In this document: in pieces, positions 32,483 through 42,550 of the stretch
Layout: every line of letters starts with the position of its first letter
Position numbering within the stretch: the first letter of the stretch is position 1
Source of the DNA: Myxococcaceae bacterium
GTDB lineage: Bacteria > Myxococcota > Myxococcia > Myxococcales > Myxococcaceae
NCBI GenBank assembly: GCA_016926755.1
Contig: JAFGNZ010000079.1
Location: forward strand, 1 to 60,257
Direction: 5' to 3'
DNA length: 60,257 nucleotides
Program-made: the position numbers and the translations under genes
Notes under the pieces: model-generated
Told to the model about the DNA's origin: nothing
The model's input: only the letters and a program-made list of their open reading frames with translations
The model's database searches: none

Positions 32483-34972
32483 TCACCGTGAGGAGGTGGG
32501 CGCGGCGGCCAGCAGGCGCGGCAGCGTCACCCGGAAGGTGGTGCCCGCCTCCACGGTGGAGCTCACCTCGATGGAGCCGCCGTGCCCCGTCACCACCTGC
32601 TCGACGATGTAGAGGCCCAGCCCCAACCCCCCTCCACCCGAAGAGGCGCGGTGGAACGGATCAAACAGGTATGGCAGGGCCTTGGGCTGGATGGGCTCGC
32701 CCTCGTTGTGCACCTCCAGCACCACCTGCTCTCCCCTGTCGGCGAGCCGGAAGGTGACGGGGGTGTCGGGCGGGCTGTACTGGAGCGCGTTGCCCCCCAG
32801 GTTGGTCACCACCTGCACCAGGCGGTCCGCGTCCCAGGAGCCCTCGTAGCGCCCGGGCTCCAGGCGCAGGCGCACGGAGCGCTCGGGCCACGCCGCCTCC
32901 AGCTCCTCCACGCCCTGCCGCACCACGGGGCGAAGATCCCCCTGCACGCGCTGGATGGGGATGCCGCCGCCCAGGCGCCCGCGGGTGAAGTCCAGCAGGT
33001 CGGCGATCATCCGCTTCATCCGGTCCGCCGCCTTGGCCACGCGGGCCGCGGCGCGCTGATCCCGTGGCGTCAGCGTCTCGCTGTGCAGCAGCGGGTTGAT
33101 GGACAGGAAGATGGCGTTCAACGGGTTGCGCAGATCATGGCTGACGATGGCGATGAGCTTCTCGCCGAACTCGGCGGCCAGGCGCGCGGCGGCCTCGGCG
33201 CGGCGCAGCTCCGTCACGTCGACGAGCGTCACCACGGCCGCGACGATCTGCCCCGCACGGTCCCGGATGGGGGCGCTGGAGAGCAGGACGCTGCTGCACT
33301 GGCCATCTCCCCGCCGCAGCTCGACCTCCTCGCCCTGCACCACCTCACCGGAGCGCAGCGAGCGCGCGAGCGGCCACTCCTCGGGAGCGTAGGGCCGGCC
33401 ATCCGGGTGGTAGCCCGGGTAGACGGAGTACTCGCCGACGTGCTCCACCTGAATGAAGGGCATCCCCATGATGGCCTCCACCCGCCGGTTGCCCAGCACC
33501 ACCCGGCCGCTGGGCGCCTCGGCGAGGATGACGCCGGCGGGCAGCTGATCCAGCACCGCGGCCAGCCGGGCGCGCTCGGCCTCGATGTCCACCAGCAGCC
33601 GCTGGCGCTCGGTCTCCGCGGCGCGCCGCTGGGTGATGTCCAGGAAGGTGCCCGCCAGCTGGGCCGCCTTGCCGGACGCGTCCCGGAGGGCCGTCATGTG
33701 CGTGAAGACGGGCAGGCGGCTGCCGTCCTTGCGCAGGTGCATGGCCTCGTACTCGTGGTGGAGCTTGGAGTGCGCGACGGCCACGTGCCGCGCCAGCACC
33801 CCGCGAGACTCCGGAGCGAAGAGCGTCGCCAGCGGCTGGCCGATGAGCTCCTCGCGCTCGTAGCCGTGCATCCTCGCGAAGGCCGGGTTCACGTCCTGCA
33901 GCACGTTGTCCTCGGTGCGCGTGAGCGCCACCCCCACGCCCAGGTGGGCGAAGATCTCCTCCCAGCGCTCGCGCTGCGCCTCGCTGGCGCGCAACAGGGC
34001 GAGGGACTGCTCGGCCTGGGCCCGGGCTCTCTGCTCGCGGGCGTGGGCCTGGGCCCGGGCGACCAAGGAGGTGGTGCGCGCCGCCATGGTGCGGAACAGC
34101 AGCAGATCCTCGTCGGAGAACTCGTGGCTGCTGCGGCTGCCCATCACCACCACGCCGAGCACCTCCTCCATCAGCTGCAGCGGCACCGCGTAGAGGGCGC
34201 GCAGGCCGCTCTCCCGGAGCGCCTGGCTGATCACCCGCGGATCCGTCGCCGCGTCGCGCAGGGTGGCGGGCTGGAGGGTGGTGGCCACCCCGCCGGTGAA
34301 GCCCTCTCCCAGGCGCACGCGGAAGCCCTCCTCGAGCGTGAGGCCCACCGCGCTCTCCAGCCGGAGGAAGTCCCCCTCGCGCAGCAGGACGATCACCGCG
34401 TCCACCACCGGGACCGTCTCCTGGAGCACCTGGAGCAGCCGAGGCAGGAAGGTGGAGAGGTCCGGGCTGCCGATGGCCGCGGCGGAGATGCGGTCCAGCG
34501 CCTGGAAGGTGCGCTCCCGGGCGAGCATGTAGCGGGTGACCGAGGCCGCCACCGCCTCGTCCACGGCCTCGTGGAACACGGCCTCCCCCTCCAGCGAGTC
34601 CGTGGCGCCCTGCGCCGCCCACAGCCGCAGCACGCACCGGCGCAGCAGCTGGTACTCCATCACCACCTGCCGCAGATCAAAGCCCTCGCCCAGCCGCTCC
34701 AGGGCGTGCGAGTCCGGGGCGGAGCCCGGCCTGGTGGAGGCGCCCTCCTCCCGAGGCCGTGAGCTCATCTCCGCGATGCGGTCCAGCAGCAGGGGCAGGT
34801 GGTCCCTCAGCACCGCCTGCGAGAGGCCGCGGGCCGCGGGGAGCTGGCGAACCTCCTCCTCCCACGCTTCGAGGATGGCGTTGCGGTGGCTGCGGAGGAA
34901 CTCTGCCAGTCGGAGGGGCACGGGAGGAATTCGAGAGGTGAGGACGGGAGCAGACCTGCGAAGTCCCTCCAC
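32483..34972 (-). CDS. Multi-sensor histidine kinase (RsbRD-like, GAF, two PAS)
   Basis: 829 residues, no membrane spans. Residues 20-165 resemble an RsbRD-type helical sensor (SHRNAILEAWEEEVRQLPAA). A GAF domain follows (about 175-330), then PAS-1 (ALTRTEDNVLQDVNPAFARM) and PAS-2 (GVILAEAPSGRVVLGNRRVE), each with a PAC tail. The kinase core has H-box AIVSHDLRNPLNAIFLS, N-box VVTNLGGNALQYSP and G-box GGGLGLGLYIVEQVVTGHGG. All catalytic blocks are intact. Convergent with the receiver gene. The RMKRMIADLLDFTR stretch shows kinship with the 20.8- and 51.4-kb kinases. Confidence 0.92.
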   Translation of the reverse strand: MEGLRRSAPVLTSRIPPVPLRLAEFLRSHRNAILEAWEEEVRQLPAARGLSQAVLRDHLPLLLDRIAEMSSRPREEGASTRPGSAPDSHALERLGEGFDLRQVVMEYQLLRRCVLRLWAAQGATDSLEGEAVFHEAVDEAVAASVTRYMLARERTFQALDRISAAAIGSPDLSTFLPRLLQVLQETVPVVDAVIVLLREGDFLRLESAVGLTLEEGFRVRLGEGFTGGVATTLQPATLRDAATDPRVISQALRESGLRALYAVPLQLMEEVLGVVVMGSRSSHEFSDEDLLLFRTMAARTTSLVARAQAHAREQRARAQAEQSLALLRASEAQRERWEEIFAHLGVGVALTRTEDNVLQDVNPAFARMHGYEREELIGQPLATLFAPESRGVLARHVAVAHSKLHHEYEAMHLRKDGSRLPVFTHMTALRDASGKAAQLAGTFLDITQRRAAETERQRLLVDIEAERARLAAVLDQLPAGVILAEAPSGRVVLGNRRVEAIMGMPFIQVEHVGEYSVYPGYHPDGRPYAPEEWPLARSLRSGEVVQGEEVELRRGDGQCSSVLLSSAPIRDRAGQIVAAVVTLVDVTELRRAEAAARLAAEFGEKLIAIVSHDLRNPLNAIFLSINPLLHSETLTPRDQRAAARVAKAADRMKRMIADLLDFTRGRLGGGIPIQRVQGDLRPVVRQGVEELEAAWPERSVRLRLEPGRYEGSWDADRLVQVVTNLGGNALQYSPPDTPVTFRLADRGEQVVLEVHNEGEPIQPKALPYLFDPFHRASSGGGGLGLGLYIVEQVVTGHGGSIEVSSTVEAGTTFRVTLPRLLAAAPTSSR

Positions 34973-35052
34973 ATCGAGGCGACACAGTGGGGTGCGGCAA
35001 GGTTCGCGGAGCCGGGTGCCCGACGGTCAGCAGCGCGCCGGGGTTCGAGCGC

Positions 35053-35319
35053 TCAGAGCGCCCCAGCCGGCAGCTCCTCCTCCGGGCCTCGGAGCTCCAG
35101 CAGGTGCGCCAGCCCGTGCTCATGATCCACGGCGTAGCGCACGTGGAAGCCAGAGGGGAGCCGACATGCAGCGAAGCTCTCGGCTCCGCCATGGCTCTCC
35201 GCCCCGAGCATGGGGCCCGAGAAGATCGCGCCGAGCTCGTGCAGGACGCGCTCGCGCACCGCCGCCTGGCAGCAGGAGAGCATTTTCACCGTCTGAGGCA
35301 TGAGCTGGAGTCGGAAAGC
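35053..35319 (-). CDS. Small protein with RelE/ParE-like pattern
   Basis: Start at MAFRLQLMPQT with GAGGGG 5 nt upstream; 88 residues. The order of elements (strand FRLQLMP, helix RERVLHELGAIF, strands FAACRLPSGFHVRYAVDHEH and LAHLLELRG) follows the RelE/ParE fold, in which the last strands carry catalytic residues. No antitoxin gene is adjacent, so either the similarity is superficial or the toxin is solitary. Two Cys (SCCQ) near the N-terminus are unusual for the family. Confidence 0.5.
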   Translation of the reverse strand, partial: AFRLQLMPQTVKMLSCCQAAVRERVLHELGAIFSGPMLGAESHGGAESFAACRLPSGFHVRYAVDHEHGLAHLLELRGPEEELPAGAL

Positions 35320-35525
35320 CATCGCACCCCTCAAGCTGGCCATCCCGCCGAGTGAGAGCAAGCGGCCGTGGCCTCACGCTCGGGAGGGCCGACGACGACC
35401 GTCGAGGACTGTGCGGAGCGGTCGGCCCGGAGGGCACGGGCCGCGGGAGGCCACCTCGGCTGTCCGGAAGCCGACGGTTGCTCGCACCCCAGCGTGGCGA
35501 CTCGGGCCCTGTGAGCCTGCGCTCC

Positions 35526-38408
35526 CTATTGGACGGGGACGCGCCGGGCCGTGCCCGCCGAGAGCTCCACCCGCAGCAGCCTGCCCGCGCTGTCGAAGAG
35601 GAGCAGCTCGCCGCCCGAGAAGCGGGCCCGCACCCGCGCCTCGCCCTCGAAGAGGAAGTGCGCCCGGAGCGCATCCCCCTTCCCGGAGAGCTTCAGCTCG
35701 TGGCCCGAGTTCGTCTCCAGGCGGGTCAGGATCCACGGCGAGGAGAACAGCAGGTGATCCACCTGCACCAGCCTGCCCGTCTCCTCGTCCACCACCACCA
35801 GCGGCATGCCGTCCCCTGCCCGGCGCGCGGTGCGCGAGCGCAGCGTGGGGCCTGCGTTGAGCGCGTACGTCCACAGCTGCGGATCGCCGCACCAGGTGGT
35901 GAACCGCAGGCGCTCCGCGTCCGCCTCGAGCGCCATCACCACGCCGCCCACCTGGGACACCCGCCAGAGCGCGCGCAGGCCGTCCTTCGCCAGCGCGTCC
36001 ACCGCCATCACCGTGTCCGCCTCGGCGATGAACCACAGGTTGCCGTCGTAGCTCGGCGCGAAGGCGTCCACCTTCGCGTCGCACCAGTGCGCGGCGCGCC
36101 GCGCGCCGGGCTCGATGCGGGAGATGCGCTGGAGCTCCCCGCGCGGCGCCAGCGCCAGCACCCGATCCTCGTGCACCGAGGGCACCAGCGAGAAGGCGGG
36201 CACGTCGAAGTGCGCCACGCAGGTGCCGTCCGCGCGCACCAGCCGCGCGCCTGCCTCTCCCAGCGCCAGCAGCACGCGCTGGCTCGACAGCGCCACCGCG
36301 TCATGGATGGGATAGGGGCCCGCCTCGGTCGCCGCGAGCGCCTCCTTCAGCAGCGCCGCCCCCGTCTCCTCGGCCCAGTGACGGCGGCGGAGCTCCGGCA
36401 CCGGGGGGAGATCCGCGCGCAGGGGGCCGTCCTCCCCGTCTCGCAGCAGCCGCGTGAGGAAGCCCGAGTCCACCCGCGTGTGGCCCGCGGCCCTGTCTCT
36501 CAGCAGCGCGCGCACCGCGGGGCCCACCAGCGGCGTCCGCGCCTCTGAGCGCTGCTCGGCGGCGAGGACCTCGGCGAAGGCGAGCCGCTCGGCCGCGCGG
36601 GCCTGGCCCTCATCCTCCAGCAGCCCGAGCACCGGAGCGCGGACTTCGTCGAAGGCCTCCGGGAAGGCCACCGCCAGCCGCGCGAGCGCCCGCGCGCCGC
36701 CTACCCCCCCCACCGCGGCGCCGTGCTCCAGCCACGCGCGTGCCAGGGGGCGGGCATCCTCCAGGCGCCAGACGACGTCCACCGCGCGCGTGTAGTCCCC
36801 CGCCTCCGCCAGCGCCTCCGCCCAGAGCAGGCGCAGGGTGCGCGCCTCGGCCGGGTGGGTGCGCTCCAGCCGCAGCACGGCGTCCGAGAAGGCTCCGCTG
36901 CGCCGGGCGATCTCCACCGCTCGCCGGAGCTCCTTCGCCAGCAGCCACTGGCGCACCACCAGCCCCGGCGCCATGCCGCGCCCCTCGGCCAGCTCGGCCG
37001 CGAGCCGCAGGCGCCCGTGCTTCTCCAGGAAGGACACGGCCTCCTCGTGCGCGCCGAGCAGCTCGGTGAGGACGAAGGCCGCCTCGTCGATGCGGCCCTC
37101 GCGCTCCAGCCGCCGGAAGGCCGCGCGGTAGCGCTCCCTGAGCGCCGTGTAGATCTCCTCGCCTCCGCCGAAGATGGACGTTGCTCCCCTGCGCCGGTTC
37201 GTCTGGATGGCGAGGCTCTCGCGCGGGCCGGGCAGCCCCAGGGAGAGGCGCGCCTGCTCCGTCAGCTCGTTGCCCAGGGGGATGGCGTAGCGCAGCGCCT
37301 CGTTGAGATCGCCCTGCTCGAACATGTCGAACAGGCGCCGCACGTACTCCGCCTTGCGCTGCCCCAGCAGCGCGCCGAGCGGCGTGCTCCGCAACAGCCA
37401 CTCGGAGAGCCGCGAGAACACCCCGGGCCCTTGGGGTGGGGGCGGTGTGGAGGGCGGCTCGGGCGCCGGTCGGCTGGAGGAGGGCTCGGGCTGGAAGAGC
37501 GCCTGACGCAGCCGCGCGAGCATTCGCGCCAGCAGGGAGGGCGGGGCCGTCCGCGCCTCTTCGCCAGCCCGAGCCTTCGCGGCCGTGCCCGAGGCAAGCG
37601 CGGGCCGGGCCGGAGCGGCCGACCCACGCGGGCCCAGCGCGCGCTGGAGCCAGGACACGAAGCGCCTCAGGGCCGAGGGAGCGGTGTCCGTCGTGGTGGC
37701 GGCGGAGGTGGACTGCTCCGCGGAGGTGAGCTTCCTGGCCCCCTGCTGGAGCCGCGCTCGTGCGGTGCGCTCTCCTCGCAGCCAGCCGCGCAGCCGGGCC
37801 CACCAGGAGGGTGAGGCGTCCTCCGTCTCGGCGCGCGCGGCCTCGAGCGCCTCGGCATCAGCCAGGCGCCCCTCCATGCGCGCCCGCATGGCCTCGGCCT
37901 CGGGCGCGGGCGCGGGAACTCCGCCGAAGAGGCTGCGCCTCGGCGCCGCGACAGGCTCCAGGACGGAGACGGGGGGCGGAGGGGCCCCGAGCCCCTGCAC
38001 GGTGACGGTGCTCCACTCGGACACGTCGAGCCACGCCGCCACGTCCACCCTTCGAGAAGGCTCTCCCGGAAACACCTCCGCGTGCCCCGCGCGCACCAGC
38101 ACCGTGGAGCCCGGGGGAGGCGCGAGGTGCACGCGCTCGGCGGCGGAGAGCGGCGCGGAGAGGAGCACGCCGTCCTCGAGCGTGAGGGGCAGCCCCGGCG
38201 TGGTGGCGCAGTCCACCGGAGTGGCCCGCGGCGGCCTGAGGAGGAAGCCACCGGCGAGCGCGAAGACGCTGGTGCCCGGCGTCCACGCGGCGAGCACGCG
38301 CCTGCGGGCCTCGCGCTCGCCCAGCAGCGTGGGATTGAACCAGAGGGCCGCCGCCACCACGGTGCCACGGTGAAGGTGCAGCCAGGGCCTCACGGGGCGC
38401 GGGCTCAT
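35526..38408 (-). CDS. bpX6-like protein: N-terminal module, helical repeats, C-terminal beta-propeller
   Basis: ATG at 38408 overlaps the upstream stop (ATGA); 960 residues. The first 150 residues (RGTVVAAALWFNPTLLGERE, PVDCATTPGLPLTLEDGVLL) match the bpX6 pattern of MoxR-vWA-beta-propeller ternary systems as I recall it. A Pro/Arg/Ala linker follows (170-300). Then there is a helical-repeat region (300-590; LFDMFEQGDLNEALRYAIPL, FVLTELLGAHEEAVSFLEKH). Finally WD40-like blades occupy about 600-960 (DAVALSSQRVLLALGEAGAR, DGNLWFIAEADTVMAVDA). Last gene of the four-gene operon. Predicted cytoplasmic. Confidence 0.75.
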   Translation of the reverse strand: MSPRPVRPWLHLHRGTVVAAALWFNPTLLGEREARRRVLAAWTPGTSVFALAGGFLLRPPRATPVDCATTPGLPLTLEDGVLLSAPLSAAERVHLAPPPGSTVLVRAGHAEVFPGEPSRRVDVAAWLDVSEWSTVTVQGLGAPPPPVSVLEPVAAPRRSLFGGVPAPAPEAEAMRARMEGRLADAEALEAARAETEDASPSWWARLRGWLRGERTARARLQQGARKLTSAEQSTSAATTTDTAPSALRRFVSWLQRALGPRGSAAPARPALASGTAAKARAGEEARTAPPSLLARMLARLRQALFQPEPSSSRPAPEPPSTPPPPQGPGVFSRLSEWLLRSTPLGALLGQRKAEYVRRLFDMFEQGDLNEALRYAIPLGNELTEQARLSLGLPGPRESLAIQTNRRRGATSIFGGGEEIYTALRERYRAAFRRLEREGRIDEAAFVLTELLGAHEEAVSFLEKHGRLRLAAELAEGRGMAPGLVVRQWLLAKELRRAVEIARRSGAFSDAVLRLERTHPAEARTLRLLWAEALAEAGDYTRAVDVVWRLEDARPLARAWLEHGAAVGGVGGARALARLAVAFPEAFDEVRAPVLGLLEDEGQARAAERLAFAEVLAAEQRSEARTPLVGPAVRALLRDRAAGHTRVDSGFLTRLLRDGEDGPLRADLPPVPELRRRHWAEETGAALLKEALAATEAGPYPIHDAVALSSQRVLLALGEAGARLVRADGTCVAHFDVPAFSLVPSVHEDRVLALAPRGELQRISRIEPGARRAAHWCDAKVDAFAPSYDGNLWFIAEADTVMAVDALAKDGLRALWRVSQVGGVVMALEADAERLRFTTWCGDPQLWTYALNAGPTLRSRTARRAGDGMPLVVVDEETGRLVQVDHLLFSSPWILTRLETNSGHELKLSGKGDALRAHFLFEGEARVRARFSGGELLLFDSAGRLLRVELSAGTARRVPVQ

Positions 38409-40198
38409 GCTCCCTCCTCCGGCGCGGCGCGGTAGAGGACGGCCTGCCGCTCCAGGCTCCACACCACGAGCTCCCCCTTCACCGTCAGCCACGCGAGCAC
38501 GGACAGGCCGTGGCTCACCGCCACGTGCGCCACCTCGTCCTCCGCCCGCGCCACCCGTTGCCTTCCAGAGGCGCACAGGAGCTGGAAGTCCCGCCGATCG
38601 CGCCCGAGCAGCATGAGCCCTGCCTCCTGCGCGTCGGGGAAGCTGACGGCCACCCCCACCACCCGCGAGCCCTCGGGGACATGGAGCTGCACCTCCCCTT
38701 CGGCGAGCAGCACCTTCCAGATGCCAGGGCTTTGACGCTGCGCGAGCAGCCCCGCCTCCGGGTGGCCGAGGACATAGGCATGGCCGAAGAACGCCTTGCC
38801 ATCCCCTGGCCCGAGCGGCAGGTGGCGCTGGTGGTGGCCCTCCAGGAGCCCCAGCCACATCCCCTGCGTGGGGGAGCCCTCGGCGGAGGCCATCACGAAG
38901 GTGGGCCTGCGCTTCACCTCGGTGAGGGCGCTCACCTGGCTGGCCAGCAGCGCGGGCCCCTGCTGGCGGACGAGGAAGAGGCGCCCCTCGCTGTCTCGCA
39001 CCAGCACGCGCTCCTGCCCCTCCTCGCTGAAGGCCGTGGCGAGCCCCGGTGGCAGGCCCGGCGGCGGCGCGTCTGGCAGCAGCCCCTCATAGCCCAGGTA
39101 GGGGATGCCCCGAGGCCTCGAGCCTCCGAAGGCGCCCTTCAGGCCGCCATGGAGCCAGAGGACCTTCTCGTCTCGGGTGAGCGCGAGCAGCCCGCCATTG
39201 CGGCGCCAGCCGACGGCCACCAGCTGCTGGCCCGGCGGGGGCTGGAAGCGGCGCGGCTTGGGGACGGTGGCGCGCGGGGAGTGAGGGACGGGCTGCACGG
39301 CCACGCTCCCATCCGCCCGGACGAAGATGAGCCGCGTGCCATCCGCGGAGAAGAAGAACGCCTGGACGCGGGAGGCGTTGGACAGGCGCACCGGCCCCGG
39401 CGTGCGGGAGGTGAAGGGATCCCTCAGGAGGCGGATGCACGTGTCCGGGGCCGGCAGCTCCAGCGCCACGGAGGCGGGCGCGCGCGCCACGCGCCGCACG
39501 GCGACCGAGAGCCGGCGGAGGCCCGGCGCCAGCACCTCCTCCACCTCCACGTGAGACAGGCCCGCGGCCTCCGGGAGCCGGGCGAGCCGGGCGCCGCCGA
39601 TGAGCCAGCCATCCTCCGGGGCACTACCGAGCGAGAGCGCCGCGCGCCACGCGGCCACGTGCCCTCCCGAGGCGGGCACCACGCTCCGGGCGGAGAGCCA
39701 TGACTGGACGGCGGAGGGGGTGACGGCGGAGAAGGGGCCACGGTCAGGCGAGCTCTGGAGCACGCCCCAGGCGAACTGGGCGCCGGCCGCCTCCGCGCGC
39801 CGCTGCAGCACGACGAGGAGCGCGAGGTGGGCGATGCGCGGAGCGCCGAGCTGATCCGGGCCCGCGTCCAGCAGCGCCACGGTGCGCCGCGAGCCCTGCG
39901 GCTGCTTGAAGGCGGGCTTGAGGAAGGCGTGCTCGCCGAAGGCCGCGCGGCGGATGAACTCGTCGGGGGACTCCAGGGCGTAGAGCCACTCGGTGAGCAG
40001 CAGCCGCTCGTAGGTGCCGCGGCGAGCCAGGCCATCATAGCCCTGGGGCTCGCCGCCCTCCGTCTCGCCGCGGGGCCGGAGCGAGCCGACGGCGGACGCG
40101 AGCCGAGCCACGTGCGGCCCCAGGCTGAGCGCGAGCTCCTCCGGGAAGATCGCCAGCTGCGGCGCCCAGGGGCGCAGGGCGGGGGGCAGGTTGCTCAC
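38405..40198 (-). CDS. vWA-like domain fused to beta-propeller (ternary-system component)
   Basis: GTG at 40198 overlaps the preceding stop as GTGA; 597 residues starting VSNLPPALRPWAPQLAIFPE. Residues 60-250 look vWA-like: the segment RRTVALLDAGPDQLG sits where the metal-site DxSxS strand is expected but lacks the serines. VVLQRRAEAAGAQFAWGVLQ then gives the next helix/strand. Residues 290-597 carry propeller blades (RVQAFFFSADGTRLIFVRAD, QQLVAVGWRRNGGLLALTRD, GLSVLAWLTVKGELVVWSLE). The fusion of both modules and the coupled neighbours define this as the vWA/propeller arm of a MoxR system. Confidence 0.72.
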   Translation of the reverse strand: MSNLPPALRPWAPQLAIFPEELALSLGPHVARLASAVGSLRPRGETEGGEPQGYDGLARRGTYERLLLTEWLYALESPDEFIRRAAFGEHAFLKPAFKQPQGSRRTVALLDAGPDQLGAPRIAHLALLVVLQRRAEAAGAQFAWGVLQSSPDRGPFSAVTPSAVQSWLSARSVVPASGGHVAAWRAALSLGSAPEDGWLIGGARLARLPEAAGLSHVEVEEVLAPGLRRLSVAVRRVARAPASVALELPAPDTCIRLLRDPFTSRTPGPVRLSNASRVQAFFFSADGTRLIFVRADGSVAVQPVPHSPRATVPKPRRFQPPPGQQLVAVGWRRNGGLLALTRDEKVLWLHGGLKGAFGGSRPRGIPYLGYEGLLPDAPPPGLPPGLATAFSEEGQERVLVRDSEGRLFLVRQQGPALLASQVSALTEVKRRPTFVMASAEGSPTQGMWLGLLEGHHQRHLPLGPGDGKAFFGHAYVLGHPEAGLLAQRQSPGIWKVLLAEGEVQLHVPEGSRVVGVAVSFPDAQEAGLMLLGRDRRDFQLLCASGRQRVARAEDEVAHVAVSHGLSVLAWLTVKGELVVWSLERQAVLYRAAPEEGA

Positions 40199-40686
40199 GG
40201 TGCGCCCTCCGCCGCCTTCAACCACGACGCGAGCGTCTCCCGCGCCACGGGCCGGGCGGCGCCCACGGGGACGAGCAGCCCGGAGCGCGGGAGCACCGCG
40301 AGCGGCGTCCCGACGCCGGCCCGGGCCACGAGGGCGCGCTCGAGCAGGGCGGGCGCCACCTCGGGGGCGAGCGCGCACGGCAGCAGCAGCGAGGGAGCGC
40401 CAGAGTCCCTCCCGAGGTACACGGCGCCATCCACCCACGGGAGCGACTCGGTCTCTCCCAGGAGGACGAGCACGCCCGGGCCCGCCACCCCGCTCCAGGC
40501 GCCGAGCTGCGTGTCCTCGGCGGCCAGCGCCCTGCGCGCGAGCGCGAGCGCCACGGGGCCGACGCCCGCGACGGCCAGGGCCGCCAGCGGCTCCCGCCGG
40601 GGGCCCCACGTCACCGGCAGCCGCGAGGGGGCGTGCGAAGGAGAGGGGACGCTCAAGGTGCTCGGAGCCTGGACCAAGGGTGGCAC
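40195..40686 (-). CDS. Small unassigned component of the MoxR operon
   Basis: 163 residues from a GTG at 40686, 7 nt after the MoxR stop; AGAAGGA is adjacent, so a nearby TTG start is also possible. Hydrophobic/Ala-rich alpha-beta character (LAALAVAGVGPVALALARRA, GPGVLVLLGETESLPWVDGA, PLAVLPRSGLLVPVG). No domain recognised. The four-base overlap with the next gene means it is translated with the vWA/propeller protein, so it is presumably a dedicated subunit or adaptor; it may correspond to one of the small bpX domains. Confidence 0.6.
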   Translation of the reverse strand: MPPLVQAPSTLSVPSPSHAPSRLPVTWGPRREPLAALAVAGVGPVALALARRALAAEDTQLGAWSGVAGPGVLVLLGETESLPWVDGAVYLGRDSGAPSLLLPCALAPEVAPALLERALVARAGVGTPLAVLPRSGLLVPVGAARPVARETLASWLKAAEGAP

Positions 40687-40693
40687 TTCCTTC

Positions 40694-41857
40694 TCACGCC
40701 TGGGCCACGGGCCCGGCCGAGCCCTCCAGCGCCCCGCGGATCTCCTCGCGCAGCGCCTGGAGCTCGCCAGGGAGTGTCTCCGGGGCAAACCCCGCGTCCA
40801 TCTCGCGCACCACGCCCTCCAGCTTGAGCCGCCACGCGGAGAGCTCCTCGGAGGCGGCCTCCGCGGGCCGCCCGGCCATCACCTCGCGCCCCGCCCGGGC
40901 GATGCGCTGCGCCCGCGCCAGGGGCCCCGCGCTGGCCTCCAGCGCCGCCGCGGCCAGCGCCGGGTTCTCCGTGGAGGCCAGCAGCTCTCGGAGCACCTCG
41001 CGCGCCAGCGCCTGTCCCTCCTTGGTGGGCACCGCGTAGATCAGCGGCCACAGATCCGCCACGCCCGGCGTCCGCCTCCCGGCCAGCGCCGCCGCCGCCG
41101 CGATGAGCCGCTGCACCTTCACCGCGCGCCTGTCCGACAGCCCGATGCCCGCGGCCCGCAGCGTGCGCAGCGCGTGGGCCAGGTGGGGGCGCACCGGCCC
41201 CAGGTCCGCCTCCTGGGCCGCCCTCGCCAGCACGTCCAGCGCCTCCAGCGAGGCCACCCGCGCCTCCGCCTCGCGCCACAGCGAGGCGCCGCCCGCCAGC
41301 AGCTCCTCCAGCCGGGGATCCGGCACGGGCTCGACGAAGATGCGCGCCAGGAAGCGATCCGCGAAGGCCGCCAGCAGCTCCTCCTCGGGCAGCGCGTTGG
41401 AGGCGCCCACACATACCCGCAGGGGCACCTTCATCCGAGTGTGGCCGCGGCGGAAGGTGCGCTCGTTGAGCACACCGAGCAGCGTGTTGAGGATGGCCGT
41501 GGAGCCGAGGAACACCTCGTCCAGGAAGGCCACCTCCGCCTCGGGCAGCATGCCCGTCGTCTCCGTCTCCACCAGCCCCTCGCGCAGCTTGCGCAGATCC
41601 ACCGGCCCGAAGATCTCCGAGGGCTCGGTGAAGCGCCCGAGCAGATACTCGAAGTAGCTCCCGCCCAGGGCGCGCGCGGTGCGGCGCACGGCCTCGCTCT
41701 TGGCGGTGCCCGGCGGGCCAATCACGAGCAGGTGCTCACCGGCCACCGCGGACAGCGCCACCAGCTCCACCATGGCCTCCCGCTCCACCAGGCCCCGGCC
41801 CGCATCGGCGAGCGCATCCCGGAGCGTGGCGGCGGCGGCTTCGAAGTTCAGGGACAT
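40694..41857 (-). CDS. MoxR-family AAA+ ATPase
   Basis: 387 residues. Walker A VIGPPGTAKSEAVRRTA, Walker B EAEVAFLDEVFLGSTAILN, sensor 1 VCVGASNALPE, and Arg finger region FADRFLARIFVEP are all intact; this is the RavA-like branch of MoxR. MoxR ATPases remodel protein complexes together with vWA proteins. First gene of the operon with the small protein, vWA/propeller and bpX6-like proteins, all coupled within 7 nt. The sequence before its ATG has no clear ribosome-binding site. The 100-nt gap to the divergent barrel gene must hold its promoter. Confidence 0.92.
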   Translation of the reverse strand: MSLNFEAAAATLRDALADAGRGLVEREAMVELVALSAVAGEHLLVIGPPGTAKSEAVRRTARALGGSYFEYLLGRFTEPSEIFGPVDLRKLREGLVETETTGMLPEAEVAFLDEVFLGSTAILNTLLGVLNERTFRRGHTRMKVPLRVCVGASNALPEEELLAAFADRFLARIFVEPVPDPRLEELLAGGASLWREAEARVASLEALDVLARAAQEADLGPVRPHLAHALRTLRAAGIGLSDRRAVKVQRLIAAAAALAGRRTPGVADLWPLIYAVPTKEGQALAREVLRELLASTENPALAAAALEASAGPLARAQRIARAGREVMAGRPAEAASEELSAWRLKLEGVVREMDAGFAPETLPGELQALREEIRGALEGSAGPVAQA

Positions 41858-41959
41858 GGGGGCGCAGTGTACGAGGCGAGACGCTCGATACGGAACGCCC
41901 AGGAGCGCCCGAGGGGCAATAGACCTGCCCCCTGCCCCCTAGGCTAGTCTCCAGGCGTG

Positions 41960-42550
41960 ATGAGACGCGCAATCAAACTCGGGGCGATGGTGGGGCTGAT
42001 CCTGTGGGCCGGGACGGCCCAGGCCGGCGAGTGGCGCGCCTACCTCTCCCTGGGCGCGGGGATGGCGCTGGACCGCCTCAGCGAGTGGAACGCGAAGGGC
42101 GCCGCCATCAACGCCTACCTGGGCGTGGAGGTGCCGATGGGCCTGTCCCTGGGTGTCTACGGCGAGGCCGTGGAGACGTGGGGCCAGAAGTTCGAGGACG
42201 TGCAGCAGGGCGGGTTGAGCCGGGTGCAGCTCGACTACCAGCAGTACGGCCTGGAGGTGCGGTTCCGGGTGCTCCGGGAGCGGATGATCTCGCCCTGGCT
42301 CGCGGTCCGGCTGGCCCAGAGCCGCTCCCGGCCGCAGACGCCGAACGAGCTCGGCCAGCTCGTCCGCCAGGAGTTCAAGGACTTGAGCGCCGCGGTGCGC
42401 TTCGGCTTCGACGTGTGGATGGGCATGAACTGGGGCCTCTCGGCGGCCACCTCCTGGCAGTGGTGCGACGTGCGGTACGAGAAGGAGGCCGTGCAGGAGT
42501 GCGCCAAGCCCATCAACACCATCCTCGTAGGGCCCACGCTGCGCTTCTGA
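41960..42550 (+). CDS. Outer-membrane beta-barrel protein
   Basis: 196 residues from ATG at 41960 (a GTG directly before it is possible). Signal peptide to about residue 21 (GAMVGLILWAGTAQA). Mature part with alternating strands (WRAYLSLGAGMALDRLSEWN, LGVEVPMGLSLGVYGEAVE, FRVLRERMISPWLAVRLAQS) and terminal Phe in LVGPTLRF, indicating a Bam-assembled barrel. Function unknown. Divergent from the MoxR operon and followed 39 nt later by an esterase gene on the same strand. Confidence 0.8.
   Translation: MRRAIKLGAMVGLILWAGTAQAGEWRAYLSLGAGMALDRLSEWNAKGAAINAYLGVEVPMGLSLGVYGEAVETWGQKFEDVQQGGLSRVQLDYQQYGLEVRFRVLRERMISPWLAVRLAQSRSRPQTPNELGQLVRQEFKDLSAAVRFGFDVWMGMNWGLSAATSWQWCDVRYEKEAVQECAKPINTILVGPTLRF

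Follow-up and report, generated by a model that had tools for sequence, protein, structure and literature searches.

A variable array of basic helices in the bpX6 protein of a MoxR, vWA-like and beta-propeller operon of the Myxococcaceae

Where, and on what, does a MoxR ATPase act when it is encoded together with a vWA-like protein and beta-propellers? Such beta-propeller MoxR-vWA ternary systems form subsystem 4 of Kaur et al. 2020 (PMC7159879), whose section on them calls them 'enigmatic', notes that a conventional effector is lacking, and points to a variable N-terminal region. We examined one locus of this kind, a four-gene operon carried by contig JAFGNZ010000079.1 of a Myxococcaceae bacterium (assembly GCA_016926755.1); the whole stretch analyzed, 60,257 nucleotides, is called the window. 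Our main finding is that in the window's family, called Myxococcaceae here after the titles of the records, a linker in the last protein holds zero to nine copies of a basic, acid-poor helix, at the place where many relatives from other phyla have a hydrophobic segment. The system is a new member of an already described and named family; the helix array is the new part and, as far as our searches show, an undescribed variant of the part of that family that is least understood.

The operon is complete and its four genes span 41857-35526 on the minus strand:

40694-41857, minus strand: gene 1, a MoxR-clade AAA+ ATPase of 387 residues, with an ATG start and the P-loop GPPGTAKS
40195-40686, minus strand: gene 2, a bpX5 protein (PF19921) of 163 residues, with a GTG start and a TGA stop
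38405-40198, minus strand: gene 3, a protein of 597 residues with a GTG start, a helical N-terminus, a putative divergent vWA-like alpha/beta domain and a C-terminal beta-propeller
35526-38408, minus strand: gene 4, a protein of 960 residues with a bpX6 domain, a linker, TPR-like helical repeats and a beta-propeller (PF19922 match and AlphaFold model)

The MoxR and bpX5 genes are separated by 7 nt (40693-40687), the bpX5 TGA stop overlaps the GTG start of gene 3 in a GTGA at 40198-40195, and an ATGA at 38408-38405 joins the stop of gene 3 to the start of gene 4; direct reading of the sequence therefore bears out the layout proposed in the initial annotation. That annotation had also matched the operon to the ternary-system family, and the Pfam profiles agree, with scores well above the cut-offs for gene 1 (PF20030, bpMoxR; 277.5 bits, E 5.7e-83, for a cut-off of 27 bits), gene 2 (PF19921, bpX5; E 2.9e-24) and gene 4 (PF19922, bpX6; E 5.7e-37). 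The small second subunit, previously left unassigned, is thus bpX5, and it carries a conserved LPWxxGxxYxG motif. Of the two large proteins, gene 4 matches a bpX profile, and its description as a bpX6 module with helical repeats and a second propeller holds, on the evidence of PF19922, AlphaFold and VIA-align. The assignment extends to homologues from the order and from other phyla: PF19921 is matched by all 31 aligned bpX5 sequences and PF19922 by all 35 aligned bpX6 sequences. By profiles and gene order, the operon is a bpX5/bpX6-type MoxR, vWA-like and beta-propeller ternary system.

The hypervariable region lies in the gene 4 protein, whose features, including scores on a position-specific scoring matrix (PSSM) described below, are given here with those of its AlphaFold model (55 sequences; m19354309ddf9; mean predicted local distance difference test, pLDDT, 78.4):

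37881-38378, minus strand: bpX6 domain, residues 11-176 (PF19922, E 5.7e-37)
37434-37868, minus strand: hypervariable linker, residues 181-325, of low identity, with many gaps, strong length variation and mostly low pLDDT
37773-37817, minus strand: basic helix repeat 1, residues 198-212 (PSSM score 26.3; AlphaFold helix 202-226, low pLDDT)
37641-37685, minus strand: basic helix repeat 2, residues 242-256 (PSSM score 9.2; AlphaFold helix 246-258, low pLDDT)
37503-37547, minus strand: basic helix repeat 3, residues 288-302 (PSSM score 13.8; AlphaFold helix 292-304)
37389-37433, minus strand: final, better conserved helix copy, residues 326-340, leading into the helical repeats (PSSM score 13.1; AlphaFold helix 330-341)
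36411-37163, minus strand: helical-repeat region, residues 416-666, TPR-like by appearance (AlphaFold helices)
35541-36350, minus strand: second beta-propeller, residues 687-956 (AlphaFold; VIA-align Z ~16-18 over ~681-954)

No stretch of the protein is better conserved than the first part of the helical-repeat region, and this region as a whole has no Pfam TPR match. An alignment of 55 rows, made of the window and 54 of the 60 loci fetched from the order (proteins cut by a contig end or without bpX6 being left out), shows that the linker-bearing stretch, window residues 172-361, ranges from 84 to 318 residues. The window protein has three repeats followed by the conserved final helix; the initial annotation had missed them.

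Read from the 55 linkers, the repeat is a basic, acid-poor helix motif, G-[LW]-[LF]-x-R-L-R-x-A-F, with the longer consensus R-R-P-G-[LW]-[LF]-x-R-L-R-A-A-F. A first count by regular expression (106 matches for 0.16 expected) was circular and is not relied on. It was replaced by a PSSM built from 61 seeds of a single genus group, g19 (records titled Myxococcus and Pyxidicoccus), which were themselves chosen by regular expression, and used with a score cut-off of 8. This PSSM has 165 matches in all linkers. In the 36 linkers of other genera (3731 residues) it has 88, versus 1.1 per shuffled replicate, while 1338 flanking open reading frames (ORFs; 341,442 residues) give 23 matches, with two or more in none of them. 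Copies per protein (n = 55) number 0 in 6 proteins, 1 in 8, 2 in 10, 3 in 10, 4 in 11, 5 in 3, 6 in 5 and 9 in 2. It is conceivable that this linker is a neutral spacer with drifting duplications, of which length and solubility alone matter; poor conservation, abundant gaps and a copy number that varies among close relatives are what such a spacer would display. We consider this very improbable, as such a spacer should lose the motif, which persists across genera at a frequency far higher than in shuffles.

The composition of the repeats sets them apart from the residues between them: the cores contain 19.6% K/R, 1.5% D/E and 17.5% F/W/Y, versus 12.8%, 7.6% and 1.3%, respectively, in the spacers. 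Successive repeats follow one another with a median spacing of 27 residues (interquartile range 25-31.5, 116 intervals), and AlphaFold places a helix on each of the window's copies, within the low-confidence linker. Bulky hydrophobic residues cluster on one face of these helices (0.709, versus 0.341 with a standard deviation of 0.013 in shuffles), and the Eisenberg moment over all 165 matches is modestly higher than in shuffles (0.437 versus 0.374, standard deviation 0.012).

The array can expand by tandem duplication, and turns over quickly. Among same-genus pairs at least 85% identical in the helical-repeat region (residues 340-660), copy number differs in 33 of 55 and linker length in 47 of 55. 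Tandem duplication is visible in the DNA of L063 (72-bp unit, 2.5 copies, 98% matches) and of L078 (81-bp unit, 2.7 copies, 80% matches); the linker DNA of the window has no comparable tandem unit, only short low-score runs. Likewise, repeats resemble one another within a protein more than they resemble those of other species of the genus in L078 (0.67 versus 0.53) and L037 (0.62 versus 0.43), and do not in L067, L069 and the window protein, P0004 (0.38 versus 0.41). Recent amplification is therefore lineage-specific, and the window copy gives no sign of it.

The origin of the repeats as simple copies of the final helix was considered and is unsupported: of 29 distant proteins, 4 have their best PSSM window on that helix, 11 at another place in the linker and 14 outside the linker. 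Scores of at least 8 occur at one or two positions in 8 of these 29 proteins, so this type of helix also exists outside the window's family. Arrays of at least three copies are found only in that family, in the sets compared.

What do relatives outside the family have at this place? The comparison involved 26 complete proteins. L114, L127, L133, L141 and L146, which are incomplete or have no linker, were left out, as were L125 and the family reference rows; L115, L124, L126 and L128 are absent from the alignment, and L143 is counted among the 26 without a measurable linker. The limits of the linker were residues 172-340 for these rows and 182-326 for family rows. A KD19 peak (19-residue hydrophobic peak) of at least 2.0 is present in the linker of 11 of the 26 proteins. 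The remaining sequence is much longer than the linker and has such a peak in 2 of 26. By their titles, the 11 records come from Streptomyces, Kitasatospora, Embleya, Pseudomonas, Duganella and one deltaproteobacterial metagenome-assembled genome. In the window's family, none of the 55 linkers reaches a KD19 of 1.6, the highest value being 1.41. Kaur et al. (PMC7159879), in the section concerned, predict a membrane-spanning segment in the third component, as an included but not strictly defining feature, and predict that this component acts near the membrane and might be the effector. The word 'amphipathic' is absent from the main text of that article.

The position of the basic helix string, where many relatives of other phyla have a membrane-spanning segment, thus suggests a machine at the cell membrane. 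The simplest account is that a string of membrane-binding helices replaces the membrane-spanning segment in the window's family. We propose, with a probability of roughly 45%, that the operon encodes an ATP-driven MoxR remodelling machine held at the cytoplasmic side of the inner membrane, comparable to RavA-ViaA of E. coli. In this machine, the MoxR protein would form a hexameric ring, as judged from RavA, and the divergent vWA-propeller protein would be the adaptor of the ring. The bpX6, helical-repeat and propeller protein would be a scaffold carrying the substrate or the effector activity; these two proteins may meet through their two propellers, as Kaur et al. suggest (PMC7159879). Contact with the membrane would be made by the linker that joins the bpX6 domain to the helical repeats. 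Streptomyces-type and some proteobacterial members would use a hydrophobic segment that probably spans the membrane; the window's family would use zero to nine basic amphipathic helices, such that anchoring could be reversible and its strength set by copy number. ATP hydrolysis might then switch the helices between engaged and released states.

RavA-ViaA is the closest point of comparison. RavA is the nearest solved relative of the window MoxR (E 3.8e-38), and the sole solved MoxR protein found at E <=1e-5. The window protein scores 148.7 bits (E 2.8e-43) on the RavA equivalog NCBIfam NF010054, far below the curated cut-off of 681, and is thus a relative of RavA rather than RavA itself. RavA-ViaA is a MoxR/vWA pair located at the inner membrane according to the passages of PMC9489729 used here, and in the window system MoxR is accompanied by a putative vWA-like protein. 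The same passages report binding to anionic phospholipids for both E. coli proteins, which in ViaA goes through an arginine-rich amphipathic helix at the C-terminus. Two differences emerge from the same passages: ViaA has one lipid-binding helix, ending the vWA protein, whereas the window system has several helix copies in a separate scaffold protein; and propellers are present in the window system, with none described there for RavA-ViaA.

Several observations weigh against a membrane tether. Basic amphipathic helices bind proteins and nucleic acids too. Some relatives lack both the repeats and a hydrophobic peak: five basal members of the family and L066 have no repeat copy, and the peaks of L136, L145 and L149 are low. 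When the KD19 threshold is lowered to 1.6, a peak is found in 14 of 26 linkers but also outside the linker in 9 of 26. AlphaFold confidence on the repeat helices is low, and the Eisenberg moment of the g19 seed repeats equals that of shuffles (0.360 versus 0.360). Finally, face clustering and composition were taken on stretches picked by the PSSM, and describe the motif rather than being independent tests.

Two alternatives give the helices another partner than the membrane. The repeats could serve for multivalent docking to another protein or domain of the system (the putative vWA-like domain, the MoxR ring or the groove of the helical repeats), copy number setting the avidity or driving a condensate. 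The fairly regular spacing would suit such a function; the conserved final helix scores on the repeat PSSM in the window protein, so the array resembles an element within the protein itself; and the vWA partner of MoxR proteins has been proposed to capture peptides, in the part of PMC7159879 that deals with it. Docking leaves unexplained the hydrophobic segment found at the same position in many relatives, and the charge and aromatic content of the repeats fit lipid contact at least equally; we regard it as distinctly unlikely. The acid-poor, lysine/arginine-rich repeats could also bind nucleic acid, the machine acting on DNA or RNA. Their large aromatic and aliphatic face, as well as the hydrophobic segments of relatives, points to membranes instead, and no nuclease domain is among the Pfam matches of the four proteins; there is little chance that this alternative is right.

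The membrane tether raises the question of whether the linker is itself the missing effector. It is possible, though doubtful, that MoxR presses the helix array onto the inner membrane or withdraws it, whether to remodel this membrane or, once an invader has been detected, to breach it; peptide-like arrays and transmembrane anchors would then be interchangeable at one site. A rival to the tether, a conflict effector, supposes that on sensing an invader MoxR releases the array, and that its helices stop the infection by attacking the inner membrane of the cell itself, as an internal antimicrobial peptide would. The hypervariable array would suit such a role, in view of the copy-number differences between close same-genus pairs and the tandem duplication in L063, as would the lack of a conventional effector and the variable N-terminal region pointed to by Kaur et al. 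In addition, the passage on Pseudomonas syringae clade 2b-a in PMC9677677 places, in a region of genome plasticity (RGP_32), genes annotated ravA, bpX5, '6ND4' and bpX6, listed in the same order as in the window and with no function attributed to them there; '6ND4' would be the propeller gene, since 6nd4 chains match gene 3. Against this idea, up to nine toxic helices per protein would demand tight control. PADLOC has two matches for MoxR, weak and generic AAA (E 9e-4 and 0.011), and nothing for the other three proteins. No match to P0004 was found among 50,697 phage records, and a viral-contig scan confirmed none; of 72,556 plasmid records, two match it in part, each of them larger than 2.8 Mb.

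The distribution of the operon bears on the same alternative. Of 145 genomes of the order, profile searches detected a single bpX5 copy in 61 and a single bpX6 copy in 60, the additional bpX5 genome (G050) having a contig that ends within bpX5. PF20030 finds MoxR proteins in every one of these 145 genomes, and in 12 of 14 controls, so that membership is decided by the score: bpMoxR proteins of at least 261 bits are present in exactly the 61 bpX5 genomes, as established by comparing the two sets by hand, and the next copy has 208.6 bits. The window genome (G000) has 13 bpMoxR matches, and among those listed only the window copy is in the score range of this system. All four genes occur in the same order in 57 of the 60 loci fetched from the order, so the gene order of the window is more than chance, and the co-occurrence foreseen in the initial annotation stands. 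The exceptions are L035, with MoxR ~12 kb away, L089, with MoxR on a separate contig, and L090, whose contig ends within bpX5. A scan of named genomes gave 59 loci. Of the 36 loci L114-L149, which include other phyla and five loci from the window's family, 29 have the four genes in this order; L114, L115 and L133 have bpX6 only, L127 and L141 have no MoxR on contigs shorter than 4 kb, and bpX5 was undetected in L135 and L143. One locus, L100 (BNCN01000005.1), is titled Comamonas sp. KCTC 72670 and carries a Myxococcus-type operon; it probably stems from a mislabelled assembly.

Within the family, inheritance looks vertical. On a gene 3 tree of 60 rows, genus labels change 10 times, the minimum for 11 groups; the window's genus (g1) is split by the sole g8 row. 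The surroundings were compared in 61 loci (60 fetched and the window; at least 2 kb was available downstream in 51 and upstream in 44 of those fetched), and neighbour families recur across genera. Downstream of the operon and on the same strand, the window has at 32483-34972 (minus strand) a GAF/PAS histidine kinase with an RsbRD_N domain, relatives of which are downstream of the operon in 40 of the 61 loci, in several genera; it may be a regulator of the operon, or merely syntenic. A loosely clustered response-regulator family is downstream in 41 of the 61 loci, and not in the window. Upstream, 99 bp from MoxR and divergent from it, 41957-42550 (plus strand) encodes a small protein whose match to the outer-membrane-barrel model PF13505 is weak and below the cut-off; relatives of this outer-membrane-type protein are upstream of MoxR in 24 of the 61 loci, again in several genera. 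The operon thus appears to reside in one chromosomal neighbourhood and to be passed on vertically, unlike a mobile defence cassette. This differs from the P. syringae copy as that passage of PMC9677677 presents it, and mobility may therefore differ between lineages. Vertical inheritance and the conserved neighbourhood mildly favour a resident cellular role; the hypervariable array and the P. syringae copy speak for conflict. On balance, we consider a conflict effector unlikely.

Within the operon, the two downstream junctions are exact 4-nt overlaps in 49 and 47 of 59 loci of the order, for start codons picked by homology to the window genes. A scan of 34900-42100 found no promoter-like site, and one terminator-like site, within gene 4, a number equal to chance expectation. 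The MoxR-bpX5 junction is an insertion hot spot in relatives (for example, L031, L032, L037, L039, L052 and L053). There, the spacing exceeds 300 bp in 21 of 58 loci, with a maximum of 4.9 kb in fetched loci and ~12 kb in G083. Five of eight scanned ORFs inserted at this junction have Pfam matches: the type VI immunity gene TsiV in L032, Tox-PAAR-like, ketoacyl-synthase and DUF2169 in L052, and AHSA1 in L053.

The remaining component, gene 3, has no Pfam match, and was analyzed through its AlphaFold model (60 sequences; mfe03e31360aa; mean pLDDT 84.2, predicted template modelling score 0.55), which has helices within residues 6-98, an alpha/beta part at 104-258 and 28 strands at 278-591:

39425-39889, minus strand: putative vWA-like alpha/beta domain, residues 104-258 (AlphaFold secondary structure; motif DxGPxQxG)
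38417-39382, minus strand: beta-propeller, residues 273-594 (28 strands, about seven blades by strand count)

The initial annotation had described this protein as a vWA-like domain fused to a propeller. The propeller stands, on the model and on VIA-align matches over ~273-594 (Z ~13, root-mean-square deviation ~4.5, ~270 residues aligned). The other part lies where a divergent vWA domain is expected, and its alpha/beta elements and retained D111 fit one, but none of 30 gene 3 homologues matches a vWA Pfam model; the evidence agrees with the assignment without proving it. A search with a profile of the domain retrieved no solved structure, and the matches listed by Foldseek and VIA-align for the gene 3 and gene 4 models are propellers only, with no vWA chain, which does not thereby exclude vWA. 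The loss of the serines from the metal site, suspected earlier, is real and conserved: the site reads DxGPxQxG, a non-canonical pattern in which D111, G113, P114, Q116, G118 and R121 never vary among the 60 rows from the order. In a second alignment that includes other phyla, D111, G113, G118 and R121 are kept in 30 of 30 rows, Q116 in 29 and P114 in 27. This agrees with the remark by Kaur et al., in the section cited (PMC7159879), that some vWA domains of these systems are without one or both aspartates. As for bpX5 and bpX6, searches for solved relatives by sequence gave none convincing (best E 0.67 and 1.2, respectively), and a homology between the two is unsupported (hhalign probability 0.3, E 0.22).

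Placed beside subsystem 4 as that section presents it, the window system shares the GXXXTAKS-type P-loop, a propeller protein with a helical N-terminus and a putative divergent vWA-like domain, and a third component with a variable N-terminal part, helical repeats and a propeller. It differs in having, by strand count, about seven propeller blades versus 'about four', and in that the linkers of the window's family hold a basic helix array without a hydrophobic membrane-spanning segment. Members were found here also in records titled Streptomyces, Acidobacteria and Armatimonadota, outside the main hosts that the section names. The FtsH-type ternary systems (subsystem 3 in the same article) share, according to Kaur et al., the P-loop variant and divergent vWA domains, and differ in that no FtsH model is among the Pfam matches of the four operon genes and four scanned neighbours. 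The systems of PMC10907252, in the part cited, are VMAP-type and not propeller-type. In the open-access literature, we found no experiment on beta-propeller ternary systems and no paper pairing MXAN with MoxR.

A record titled Myxococcus xanthus (L055) has the four genes and two repeats, so the idea of a membrane tether is testable in a standard laboratory species. A fixed site in the third component, occupied by a hydrophobic segment or by duplicating basic helices, offers a concrete and cheap hypothesis on where and how this machine acts.

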